From Actinomycetota bacterium (GTDB lineage: Bacteria > Actinomycetota > Acidimicrobiia > Acidimicrobiales > Ilumatobacteraceae), in NCBI GenBank assembly GCA_026393475.1, contig JAPLAA010000104.1, positions 218,418 to 282,417 on the forward strand: a stretch of 64,000 nt of DNA, in the 5' to 3' direction. Shown here piece after piece: positions 58,054 through 63,513 of the stretch (position 1 is the first letter of the stretch; the number at the start of each line of letters is the position of its first letter). The position numbers and the translations under genes were made by a program. The notes beneath the pieces were generated by a model, which made no database searches, was not told the origin of the DNA, and saw only the letters and a program-made list of their open reading frames with translations.

Positions 58054-58119
58054 GTGATCGGGACCCTTCGGGGTCCCTCGTATCACCGATGCAACCGCAC
58101 CCTTTTGTTGGGTGTGCGG
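58054..58119 (+). promoter_or_regulatory. Structured 5' leader (two hairpins) upstream of the DUF222-HNH gene
   Basis: Hairpin 1: GTGAT..GGGACCC-TTCG-GGGTCCC..ATCAC (58054-58086). Hairpin 2: CCGCACCC-TTTTGTT-GGGTGTGCGG (58095-58119, bulged). Followed by GGAAGGAG Shine-Dalgarno-like sequence. Confidence 0.6.
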
Positions 58120-58135
58120 GGGAAGGAGCGTGTGC

Positions 58136-59406
58136 ATGTCCACGGTCGTCGACGATCCCGTCGTGGATCCACCGGAGATCTCCGACGAGGAGATCCTTCA
58201 ACGCTGCCGCGAGATCGAAGCGCAGCGACGGGCGATGCTCGCCGAGCACGTCCGGCTTCTTCGTGAGCTCGAGGTGCGCAAGCTGTACTACGCGGACGGG
58301 CACCGCGATCTGGCCGGGTACGGGCGTGCGGAGTTCCGGTGGGCGGACCGCGACGCGAAAGCACACCGTGATCTCGAACGGCTGTGTCGTTCGTGTCCGC
58401 AGGTGCTCGACGCGTTGACGATCGGACGTGTCGGTGGCGCGCAGGTGTTCCTGCTGGCTCGTCTCGCCCGGGCGCCGCGTGTGGGGATCTATGTGGCCGA
58501 ACAGATCGACGACTTCCTCGACCACGCGGCCAAGCTGTCGTTCCTCGCGTTCGAGCAGTACGTCATCGCCTGGAAGTGCTTGATGGATCAGGACGGGCCC
58601 GATCCCGACCGCGCCCACCGGAACCGGAAGGCCAGCCTCGGACAGACCGGGTTGACCGGCAAGTTCGACGTCGAGGGACCGGCGACGGATCACGTCAGGT
58701 TGAAGGCCATGCTCGCTCACTTCGAGGAGATCGAGTTCCACCGCGACTGGGACGCAGCCAAGGCCATCCACGGCGACGACGTCAGCGCCGACAAGCTGCT
58801 GCGCACCGCCACACAACGCCGCTACGACGCCTTCCAGGAAAGGACAGCGAGGCGACCGATGGCGCCGATGAGAGTCCGGAGCCGGACGGTCCGGTGCAGA
58901 CGGTGCTCAACATCGTGATCGATGCCGAATCGGCCGTGCACGGGTTGGAGCAGCTGTTGGGCATCAGTTCGATGGCACCGGTCAGGTCGCCGTTCGGGCC
59001 GGATCGAGCGTTCTGCCAGACCTTCGACGGCGACCCCATCGCCCTGCGGGATGCAGTGTTGGCTGGCCTCGCCGGCAAGATCCGCATCGTCGTGCGGGGC
59101 AAGGACGGTTTGCCGGTCGCGATGTCGTCGGCACAACGGTTGTTCACCGGAGCGATCAGGGATGCGGTGTTGATGACGGCGACGCACTGCACGAGCGACG
59201 GGTGCATCGTCCCCGCCACGAAATGCCAGACCGACCACCTCGTCCCCGCCTCTCAAGGCGGTGAGACCTGCGTCTGCAACGGCGGCCTCGCCTGCGGGCA
59301 TCACAACCGATGGCGCTACCTCGCCAAGGTGAAGGTCCGACGACTCGCCGACGGGATCATCGCCACGTTCCGGCCCGACGGCAGCCGCATCGCACCGCCG
59401 ATGTGA
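58136..59406 (+). pseudogene. DUF222/13E12-type HNH endonuclease-like gene split by an apparent frameshift
   Basis: ORF 58112..58918 carries the DUF222-like part; ORF 58384..59406 carries the rest (GPVQTVLNIVIDAESAVHGLEQLLG...CIVPATKCQTDHLVPASQGGETCVCNGGLACGHHNRWR, HNH). Frames switch near ccaggaaaggac (~58836-58848). Confidence 0.8.
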
Positions 59407-59657: not shown

Positions 59658-60878
59658 ATGGCCACTGCCCTCGCCGATGCCGTCCTGCCGCTCGTGTCGC
59701 TGGAGCGCGAATCGAGCGGGCCCCTGCCCATCATCCAGGTCTCGAACAAGCTCCGCGAACAGGCGGCACTGGCCCGCAGCCCGTTCGTCGTCTACGTCCT
59801 CCGGCGCGGCGACGTGGCCCGGCTGCTGCACGACCCTCGGCTGCGTGGCCCCGGCCTCGACATCCTCCGCCTCCAGGGCATCACCGACGGCCCCCTCTAC
59901 GACTCGACCGCCGAGGTGCTGTTGTTCATGGAGGGCGAGGACCATCACCGCCTCCGCGGGCTCGTCGCCCGCACGTTCACGCCGAAGGCGATCGACCGGC
60001 TGCGGCCGATGATGCGTGCCTCGTTCGCCGAGCGGATCGACGAGGTCGCCGCCGCCGGCCGATGCGATGCGGTGCCCGACCTGTGCGAGCGCTACCCGAT
60101 CGACGTCATCTGCGCACTCCTCGGCGCTCCGGCCGACGACTGGCCGCTGTTCTCCCGCTGGGCCGAGGGCATCCTGCGCAGCTTGGCGTTCGACATCGGC
60201 GACCACCGCCCCTACATCGAACAGTGCCTGGCCGAGATCAACGACTACATCGACGAGCTCGTCGAGCGGAAGCGCCGTGAGCCGGGTGCCGACATCCTCA
60301 GCGATCTCATCGCCGTCGAGGAGCAGGGCGACCGCCTCACCCCGAGCGAGCTGCGCGCCGTCGCCCGCGTGATCCTCGTCGCCGGCTCCGACACGACTCG
60401 CAACCAACTCGCCCTGTCGCTGCACACCTTCGCCACCCACCCCGACCAGTGGCAGCTGCTGCAGGCCGACCCGTCGCTCGCTCCCCGCGCCGTCGAGGAG
60501 ACCATGCGCTACATCGCCGCCACCGGCGGGCTCGCCCGCGTCGCGCTCGAGGACGTGGAGGTGGCGGGGGTGGTGATCCCCGCCGGCACCATGGTCGTGC
60601 TCGACACCGTCTCGGCCAACCACGATCCGAGCGCGATCGACCGTCCCGACATCGTCGACCTCACCCGCGACGTGCCGCCCGGCTACCACCACCTCACCTT
60701 CGGCGGCGGCGTGCACTACTGCCTCGGCGCATCGCTCGCCCGGGCCGAACTGCAGGAGGCGCTGGCGATCTGCGCCGAACGCATGCCGGACCTCGCCCTC
60801 GACGGCGAACCGACGTGGAAGCCGAACCTCGGCATCTTCGGCCCCGCGTCGCTCCCACTGCGCTGGAGCGTCCGATGA
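59658..60878 (+). CDS. Cytochrome P450
   Basis: VAGSDTTRNQ I-helix, EETMRY (ExxR), FGGGVHYCLGASLARAEL heme-binding loop. Confidence 0.97.
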   Translation: MATALADAVLPLVSLERESSGPLPIIQVSNKLREQAALARSPFVVYVLRRGDVARLLHDPRLRGPGLDILRLQGITDGPLYDSTAEVLLFMEGEDHHRLRGLVARTFTPKAIDRLRPMMRASFAERIDEVAAAGRCDAVPDLCERYPIDVICALLGAPADDWPLFSRWAEGILRSLAFDIGDHRPYIEQCLAEINDYIDELVERKRREPGADILSDLIAVEEQGDRLTPSELRAVARVILVAGSDTTRNQLALSLHTFATHPDQWQLLQADPSLAPRAVEETMRYIAATGGLARVALEDVEVAGVVIPAGTMVVLDTVSANHDPSAIDRPDIVDLTRDVPPGYHHLTFGGGVHYCLGASLARAELQEALAICAERMPDLALDGEPTWKPNLGIFGPASLPLRWSVR

Positions 60879-62851
60879 GCACCGAGCACGGGCCGGAGCG
60901 CTTGCGAGGACAGGGCCTCGACCAGCATCAGGAGGAGTCGGGCAACCGGGCGATCCTCGCCCTGCTCACCGATCCGGTGGCCGGCGAACAGATCGACCTC
61001 GTGCTCACCTGGCGCGACACCGACGCCGACGGCGACCGGCCGGCGGCGTACGAGGTGTGGTCGCGCCGGGGCATGACGCGATTCCGTCGGGTGATCGCCG
61101 ACGACGGCTCGCTCGGCTTCGAGACCCTCGAGGTCGTCGGCGTCGATCCGATCGCAAACCTCGATCCGCTCGCGCTCAGCACGCTCGCCGACGAACGCGG
61201 CGCGGCGGCCGCCAGCGGCTTCGACCCCGACGACCCCGATCGACGCTTCATCGCCCCCGAGCACCAGAGCTACCCGTTCGCCCCCGAACGCATCGCCCAG
61301 CTGTTCGACTCGCCCAACGCACCCGACCTCGCGGTCAGCCCGCTCGACTGGTGTTCGGGATCGCAGCCCGGTACCCATGGCGGCCTCCACGTCCGCCAGG
61401 CCCGTGCACCGCTGTGGTTCAGCGGACCCGGCGTCGTGCCCGGCCGACACCAGCTCGCCGTGCGGTCGATCGACATCGCGCCCACGTGCCTGGCGGCGCT
61501 GCGCTTCCCGCTCATCGACGGCGCCGACGCCAGTGGCCGCACCAGCAGCGAGCGCGGCGTCGGACCCGACGTGCTCCTCGCCCGCCAGGACGGCAGGGTG
61601 GTCGACGAGGTCCTCGACCCGACGACACCAGCGCCGACCCGGCTGTACGTGTTCCTGCTCGACGGGATGCACCAGACCGAGCTCGAGCACCGACTCGCCT
61701 CCGAGCCCGACGCGCTCCCCCACCTCCGGCGCCTGCACGAGCGCGCCGCCGTGCTGGCCGGCGGGTCGATCGTCAACTTCCCGTCGATCACCTGGCCGAG
61801 CCACACGGCGATCGGCACCGGCAGCTGGTGCGGCCACCACGACGTGGTGAACCCCAGCTACTACCTCCGCGACCGCCGCGAGACCATCTCGCCCCAGGGT
61901 CTGCAGATCGGCACCGAGCGGTTCTCGAACACGGCGGTCGAGAGCATCTACGAAGCGTTCCACCGGGTGCACCCCGACGACCTCACCGCGGCCATCCACG
62001 CGCCCTTCGGGCGATCGGCCCGCCATGCGGTGCTGGAGGGCCGCAACCTCTGCGACCGGGCGACGGTGAAGGAGCTCACCGCAGCGCTCGCCCCCGGCAT
62101 GAACCCCCGCTGGGCGCTCGAGCACGGATCGGTTGCCAGCGAGGCGCTGCTCGACGTGCGCGGCCTCGCGCAGGTGCTCGAGCTGTTCGGCCGCGACGAC
62201 CAGGCGCCGCCGCGGTTCGTGTACCACGAGCTCGCGCTCACCGACGGCGCCGGCCACGAGTACGGCCCGCACGGCGACGGCCTGCGCGACGCACTCGACG
62301 AGACCGATCGGCGGATCGGCAGGGTGTTGGCCGCCCTCGACGCGCGCGGTCTGTTCGACGAGACGCTGTTCGTCGTGAGCGCCGACCACGGCATGGCGCC
62401 GCAGGACACCGCGCTCGCCGCCAACCCCACCGCGCATGTGCTCGAGGCCGGGCTCGCCGCCGTCGTCGCCGAACCGATGATCTGGCTGCTCGACGTGGCC
62501 GTGGAGGCCGAGCGCGCCGCCGATGGGCGCACCGGGCGAATCGGGGTGTTCGAACTCGATCTCGATCCCAGCGACGAACGCCCACCGGTCCAAGGGGCAC
62601 ACGTCCTCGTCGAGGCTCACGTGCCGGGCCACGTCGCCCGCCTCGTCGCGAAGGGCACCACCGATCACCACGGCCTCTACGGCTTCGCGACCCCCAGCGA
62701 CATCCCCACCGCACACCTCGTCGTGTCGGTGCGGGCCGAGGGCTTCAACCCTCGCCACCTGCGCCTCGACGGCACGAACCTCGTGCTCGACCTGGTCCAC
62801 GAGCTGTACGGGAGCAGCGGGACGAACGTCGGGTCGAGCCGCTCGGCTTGA
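60875..62851 (+). CDS. Alkaline phosphatase superfamily phosphodiesterase with apparently permuted motif order
   Basis: ATGA overlap with P450; GSQPGTHGG...LWFSGPGVVPG...DIAPTCLAAL precede LYVFLLDGMHQ, PSITWPSHTAIGTG, ALTDGAGHEYGPH and VVSADHGM. Confidence 0.85.
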   Translation: MSTEHGPERLRGQGLDQHQEESGNRAILALLTDPVAGEQIDLVLTWRDTDADGDRPAAYEVWSRRGMTRFRRVIADDGSLGFETLEVVGVDPIANLDPLALSTLADERGAAAASGFDPDDPDRRFIAPEHQSYPFAPERIAQLFDSPNAPDLAVSPLDWCSGSQPGTHGGLHVRQARAPLWFSGPGVVPGRHQLAVRSIDIAPTCLAALRFPLIDGADASGRTSSERGVGPDVLLARQDGRVVDEVLDPTTPAPTRLYVFLLDGMHQTELEHRLASEPDALPHLRRLHERAAVLAGGSIVNFPSITWPSHTAIGTGSWCGHHDVVNPSYYLRDRRETISPQGLQIGTERFSNTAVESIYEAFHRVHPDDLTAAIHAPFGRSARHAVLEGRNLCDRATVKELTAALAPGMNPRWALEHGSVASEALLDVRGLAQVLELFGRDDQAPPRFVYHELALTDGAGHEYGPHGDGLRDALDETDRRIGRVLAALDARGLFDETLFVVSADHGMAPQDTALAANPTAHVLEAGLAAVVAEPMIWLLDVAVEAERAADGRTGRIGVFELDLDPSDERPPVQGAHVLVEAHVPGHVARLVAKGTTDHHGLYGFATPSDIPTAHLVVSVRAEGFNPRHLRLDGTNLVLDLVHELYGSSGTNVGSSRSA

Positions 62852-62880: not shown

Positions 62881-63513
62881 ATGGTGCTGGTGGATCAACA
62901 TGCCTGCATGACCGCAGCCCTCGCCGCCGGAGCCGAACTCACCCTCATCGGCGCCACCCGCCTCGGTGCACGCCGGTATCGGGCGGTCGTCACCGACATC
63001 CTGCACGACCACATCGTGCTCGACACGGTCGTTGACCAGGTGCCTGCCGACAACGACTCGCTGTGGGGATCTGCGGCGTCGTTCCTCCACGACGGCCGCG
63101 TGTTCGACGTCTCCGTGATGGCGGGTGGCGGCTCGCGGTTGACGGTCAGCAAGCCCGACGGCCTCGACACCGACGACCGCCGCAGTGGTCGCCGGGTGGT
63201 CACCTCGCTCCCCGCGACGGCGCGCAAGGCGAACCTCGGCGGCGCCGTGCAGGCGGCCTACGTCGTCGACCTCAGCCTCGGCGGCGTGCGCCTGCTGCTC
63301 GAGATGGACGACGACACCTTCGGCATCGATCACGAGGTCGATCTGGTGATGGGCCACATCAACGTGCGTGCGTGGGTCCGCCACATCGCTGCCCACGACA
63401 ACCCGCGACTGCGGTACGTCGGCCTCGAGTTCGCTCCGCTCTCGGCCGATGCCCGCCGGCACCTGATCGACACCATCGGCAGCCTCCGCGCCGGCATGCA
63501 CCGCTGGCGCTGA
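62881..63513 (+). CDS. PilZ-domain-like protein (start uncertain; 62908 also possible)
   Basis: RRSGRRVVTSLPATARK...AYVVDLSLGGVRLLLEM...LRYVGLEFAPLSADARRHLIDTI. Confidence 0.75.
   Translation: MVLVDQHACMTAALAAGAELTLIGATRLGARRYRAVVTDILHDHIVLDTVVDQVPADNDSLWGSAASFLHDGRVFDVSVMAGGGSRLTVSKPDGLDTDDRRSGRRVVTSLPATARKANLGGAVQAAYVVDLSLGGVRLLLEMDDDTFGIDHEVDLVMGHINVRAWVRHIAAHDNPRLRYVGLEFAPLSADARRHLIDTIGSLRAGMHRWR

Follow-up and report, generated by a model that had tools for sequence, protein, structure and literature searches.

How can a protein keep the conserved motifs of the alkaline phosphatase (AlkP) superfamily when the last of them come first along the chain? This question is raised by a 658-aa protein encoded near the end of the window, which here denotes the whole stretch of 64,000 nucleotides analyzed from an actinomycetotal genome. 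The AlkP superfamily is a very large and well-studied group of metal-dependent phosphatases and phosphodiesterases and, to our knowledge, the order of its conserved motifs is treated as fixed. In the window protein, GTHG, SGPG, and DIAPT (residues 166-204) are followed by LLDG, the Thr nucleophile, D..H, and DHG (residues 263-505). The original prediction was that this order reflects a circular permutation, in which the fold is completed by the N-terminal segment. All the motifs that it named were recovered in the order it gave, i.e., GTHGG (residues 166-170), SGPGVVPG (183-190), DIAPTCLAAL (200-209), LLDGMH (261-266), TWPSHTAIGTG (306-316), LTDGAGHEYG (455-464), and SADHGM (502-507). As 60 distinct aligned sequences share this order, it is neither a chance arrangement nor an assembly fault. 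The features of the locus are the following:

60875-62851, + strand: gene of the 658-aa, putatively permuted AlkP-superfamily protein, with a start region conserved in relatives
60908-61624, + strand: permuted N-terminal half, comprising residues about 12-250, the homologue of which is C-terminal in canonical AlkP-superfamily proteins
61370-61384, + strand: GTHGG with H168 (61376-61378), the presumed last metal ligand and equivalent of PafA H486; H168 and G169 are invariant in all rows of the alignment
61421-61486, + strand: SGPG and DIAPT (residues 183-204), which in the canonical fold belong to the C-terminal strand and helix
61583-61594, + strand: RQDG (residues 237-240), in the new linker between the former C and N termini
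61628-62509, + strand: catalytic half, spanning residues about 252-545, the homologue of which is N-terminal in canonical members (positions 3-231 of PF01663)
61661-61663, + strand: D263, putative metal ligand, invariant
61790-61792, + strand: T306, putative nucleophile, invariant and aligned to the nucleophile position of Xac NPP
62243-62257, + strand: D457 and H461, putative metal ligands (D-x3-H), invariant
62384-62389, + strand: D504 and H505, putative metal ligands (DH of SADHGM), invariant
62510-62848, + strand: accessory domain at the C terminus (residues about 546-658), beta-rich according to AlphaFold

The two-metal ligand set of the superfamily (D, T/S nucleophile, D, H, D, H, H) is complete in this protein. 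The seven residues, H168, D263, T306, D457, H461, D504, and H505, are invariant in 60 distinct aligned sequences of subgroups A and B (61 rows, in which the window protein is counted twice). What departs from the canonical arrangement is the last His, which lies C-terminal to DHG in known members, whereas H168 precedes the LDG motif. No His past residue 505 is invariant among 25 members of the window protein's own subgroup, in agreement with the earlier claim that no GxHG follows SADHGM; a conventional His ligand on the C-terminal side, which had been named as an outcome against a permutation, is thus absent. The PF01663 profile matches the protein at 100.7 bits (Pfam gathering cutoff, 23) over residues 259-515 only, which correspond to positions 3-231 of the 342 in the profile; its final third, where the last His is found, is missing downstream, and no Pfam family was found by a search with the N-terminal half. 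The score against the PafA equivalog NF042991 (NCBIfam) was 29.8 bits, for a cutoff of 650. Membership of the AlkP superfamily by homology stands, as that of a permuted variant; the canonical order describes the known members and is not a requirement of the fold.

A3, a profile built on the N-terminal half, hits superfamily members of solved structure at their C-terminal ends. The best of these matches is to PafA (5tj3; residues 470-523, E=1.7e-4) and covers the last Zn-ligand His and a DIAPT-like helix; others are to choline sulfatase, lipoteichoic acid synthase (LTA synthase 2), ENPP4 (residues 313-376), and iPGM. H168 of GTHG is aligned with chain position 475 of 5tj3, which we take to be PafA H486, the last Zn ligand. 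The catalytic half of the window protein matches PafA too, but the order of PafA is canonical. Similarly, in 15 canonical-order actinobacterial proteins, which were chosen from the N-half matches and not by their order, the match to the catalytic-half profile (A4) comes first and that to A3 last. All 15 give swapped-order matches on the permuted profile and collinear ones on a re-ordered profile. Total HMMER scores are nearly equal for the two, because local multi-hit scoring gives no reward for collinearity, and it is the order of the matches that discriminates. One canonical-order protein, L093 (496 aa, genome G384), matches positions 23-186 of the 213 of the N-half; its C-terminal end contains most of this half, including the strand region before GTHG. 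Although L093 is distant and sits on a long branch, the re-ordered window protein aligns with it end to end, and this alignment puts the cut past the strand that follows DHG and ahead of the next helix. PF01663 paralogues from the window's own genome were also considered as canonical comparators and set aside, those read being a short PF01663 protein and sulfatase-like proteins, which are not close relatives.

Among known systems, the NPP/ENPP enzymes (PF01663; Xac NPP, 2gsn; ENPP6) give the best sequence match of the catalytic half and the best Foldseek matches, and they have the metal ligand pattern and the Thr nucleophile in common with the window protein. In contrast to NPPs, in which the segment with the last His is C-terminal, the window protein has it at the N terminus; it also has the extra accessory domain and, in common with subgroup A, an altered Asn111 context.

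In the AlphaFold model (alignment A1), the whole chain forms one compact protein (mean pLDDT 86, pTM 0.87), and two separate AlkP-like domains, which had been named as another such outcome, were not seen. The model is weak at the active-site loops, with pLDDT mostly below 50 in the nucleophile loop (residues 303-326) and about 64-68 in the GTHG loop. The best Foldseek matches are NPP3, NPP1, and Xac NPP (E 6e-7, prob 1.00), about half of the protein being aligned sequentially, with sequential TM values of about 0.24-0.44. Low-rmsd superpositions extend over only about 275 sequential columns, and alignments of ~440 columns have an rmsd near 20 Å; this pattern is as expected if a sequential aligner meets a permutation. 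When the N-terminal half was modeled alone, pLDDT and pTM were 59 and 0.59, and residues 160-199, which comprise GTHG, SGPG, and two strands, fell to a pLDDT of about 33 and lost their strands, while residues about 60-130 kept moderate confidence. The collapse of residues 160-199 suggests that the AlkP segment of this half needs the catalytic half. The position of H168 in the metal site is, from the alignments, strongly implied.

Four related proteins of 1181-1389 aa, L109 (G332:C27), L110 (G407:C6), L111 (G596:C20), and L112 (G341:C37), bear on the same point. Two sets of halves alternate in them as N1-C1-N2-C2; an accessory region comes after C2 and, in two of the four, an LPxTG-like end. 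Matches to the permuted family are strong for N1 and C2, and C1 and N2 are divergent; in catalytic-half trees, the C2 segments fall within the permuted clade and the C1 segments with the canonical proteins. The inner C1-N2 segment has a standalone homologue of canonical order, a 574-aa ORF in G337 (54% identical over 456 aa), and both sites keep the full ligand set (by eye). The simplest reading is the insertion of a canonical AlkP domain into a permuted one at its junction, so that the two halves of the permuted domain now lie about 480 residues apart in one chain. Such an arrangement would provide separate evidence that C2 is completed by N1; the alternative, in which N1 pairs with C1 and N2 with C2, appears less likely.

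Taken together, the N-half homology to the C-terminal end of ordinary members, the swapped-order matches in all 15 canonical proteins, the collinearity with L093 after re-ordering, the behavior of the isolated N-half model, and the nested relatives support the permutation that had been proposed. We consider it very probable that the window protein is a PF01663 (NPP-like) metallo-phosphoesterase of the AlkP superfamily that is naturally circularly permuted. In this rearrangement, the canonical chain would have been cut in its C-terminal part, between the strand that follows DHG (MIWLLD, near residue 540) and the helix-strand pair RAILALLT...IDLVLTW, a cut point set by eye on the alignment of L093 with the re-ordered protein. 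The RQDG linker would have connected the former C terminus, past the DIAPT helix, to the former N terminus, at the LLDG strand. This RQDG is kept in subgroups A and B and also precedes the insert in the nested proteins. The N-terminal half would then deliver H168 to the two-metal site built by D263, T306, D457, H461, D504, and H505. By homology, this site may bind two metals, probably Zn, and form a covalent phospho-threonine intermediate at T306. The protein would thus be a Zn-dependent hydrolase, acting on a cytosolic phosphoester; no signal peptide is evident at its start, which suggests that it is probably cytosolic.

Other explanations are less probable to different degrees. The one with the most weight, although unlikely, is that the protein is permuted and folded but acts as a pseudoenzyme or a non-hydrolytic binding protein. 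In subgroup A, the loop around N326-P327 indeed departs from the Asn111 context of NPPs; however, the invariance of the metal ligands and of the Thr nucleophile in 60 proteins would be surprising without catalysis. It is also quite improbable that the halves pair between subunits, H168 completing the site of a neighboring chain in a domain-swapped oligomer. Such a swap could be permitted by the RQDG linker, and the AlphaFold packing comes from a single-chain prediction, but both halves are packed in one chain in that model (pTM 0.87), and the nested proteins also hold both halves in one chain.

Still less credible is a combination of two independent domains, namely an AlkP-like C-terminal half that is truncated and can do without a further His, and an N-terminal domain that is unrelated and shows the motifs by chance. 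That the N-half has no Pfam family and that its residues 60-130 or so are modeled alone with moderate confidence fit this idea, but its profile matches the C-terminal ends of AlkP structures in the PDB and of the 15 canonical proteins, its AlkP segment does not fold alone, and H168 is invariant. Finally, the genome behind the window is a draft in 136 contigs, yet the chance that the swapped order is an artefact of assembly or gene prediction is negligible, and this reading is refuted by the recurrence of the order in dozens of independent genomes of Actinomycetota, Myxococcota, and a Spirochaeta MAG.

The natural permutation of a PF01663 enzyme thus remains the preferred reading, and its origin can be considered from the relatives. 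In an unrooted tree that included subgroup C and the closer canonical proteins, the 25 permuted catalytic halves are set apart from the 13 canonical ones at 100/99, and a single change of motif order was found in 100% of bootstrap trees. Since the permuted halves form one clade, a single ancient permutation event is the likely founder of these proteins, for which duplication and truncation is a plausible route. On a wider scale, this one event probably gave rise to a widespread clade of cytosolic, lipoprotein-like, and cell-wall-anchored proteins, in one branch of which a whole canonical AlkP domain was inserted at the junction, yielding a nested protein with two active sites.

A scan of genome contigs identified 28 loci in Acidimicrobiia and other Actinomycetota MAGs, in delta/Myxococcota MAGs, and in one Spirochaeta MAG. 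Three subgroups are distinguished: (i) subgroup A, which has the C-terminal accessory domain and the aligned members of which are 54-94% identical to the window protein; (ii) subgroup B, of about 500 aa, which is devoid of this domain and about 27-35% identical to it; and (iii) subgroup C, from the delta/Myxococcota phylum, the members of which have N termini that are lipobox-like by eye and carry the permuted AlkP part, in most cases preceded by an additional N-terminal region, together with an accessory region at the C terminus. A mixed profile was matched in 63 of the 296 genomes of the class, many of them with subgroup B, and in 15 of 397 phylum-wide. In the phylum of a delta/Myxococcota member, matches were found in 15 of 141 genomes, the weakest being canonical-order proteins. 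This search yielded the permuted subgroup C proteins L158-L163, several of which are near 1000 aa; in L158, Ser replaces the Thr nucleophile (SYSAPGH). No match was found in plasmid or phage records. In one draft genome (G041), a subgroup B gene is apparently split over two contigs (L016 and L017).

The C-terminal accessory domain of the original prediction is a real region, in which HVLVEA...LYGF lies at about residues 576-604; its type is a prediction, beta-rich in the model, and no Pfam family was matched. By eye, it is possibly the counterpart of the tails of the nested proteins and of the secreted myxobacterial relatives.

Permutation as such has been described in other contexts. Circular permutants of E. 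coli alkaline phosphatase have been engineered (Kojima et al., 2005, cited in PMC2395249) and, as the title indicates, permutation was tolerated with high specific activity; these are laboratory constructs of a different superfamily member, whereas the window protein is natural. A natural swap of motif order within a hydrolase superfamily is found in circularly permuted SGNH hydrolases, e.g., AlgX/AlgJ (PMC9487903), which differ from the window protein in superfamily and chemistry. In a survey of structural outliers (PMC3779223), the AlkP-like deviation is listed as an insertion and not as a permutation. We found no earlier report of natural circular permutation in the AlkP superfamily in the open-access literature, nor could we find there a description of the rearrangement as common to a whole bacterial protein family, although priority is not certain. 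Family models and sequential structure searches catch only half of the permuted proteins, which therefore look like partial phosphodiesterases. A natural permutant of single likely origin, accompanied by nested relatives, allows one to test directly how far rearrangement of the AlkP fold can go with its seven-residue metal site kept, and the permuted proteins represent a new enzyme family to assay.

The gene neighborhoods of subgroups A and B (gene names by eye) show no evident functional operon and indicate no pathway. In several genomes of the class, the subgroup B gene lies on the opposite strand between rplM-rpsI-glmM-glmS and truA-rplQ-rpoA-rpsD; loci with this ribosomal-gene neighborhood are L121, L127-L129, and L132-L134. 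In many Myxococcota/delta MAGs, the subgroup A gene follows a MurJ-like gene and precedes a HyuA-like one. In the window, the ATG at 60875 overlaps the stop codon of the upstream P450 gene (PF00067) as ATGA. Further upstream, a DUF222/HNH-like (13E12-type) frame at 58112-59406 seems to be split into two overlapping frames near 58870, perhaps by a frameshift (by eye). Directly downstream, at 62881-63510, lies a gene for a PilZ-domain protein (PF07238), and a similar protein is encoded after the permuted gene in a neighboring species (L019).
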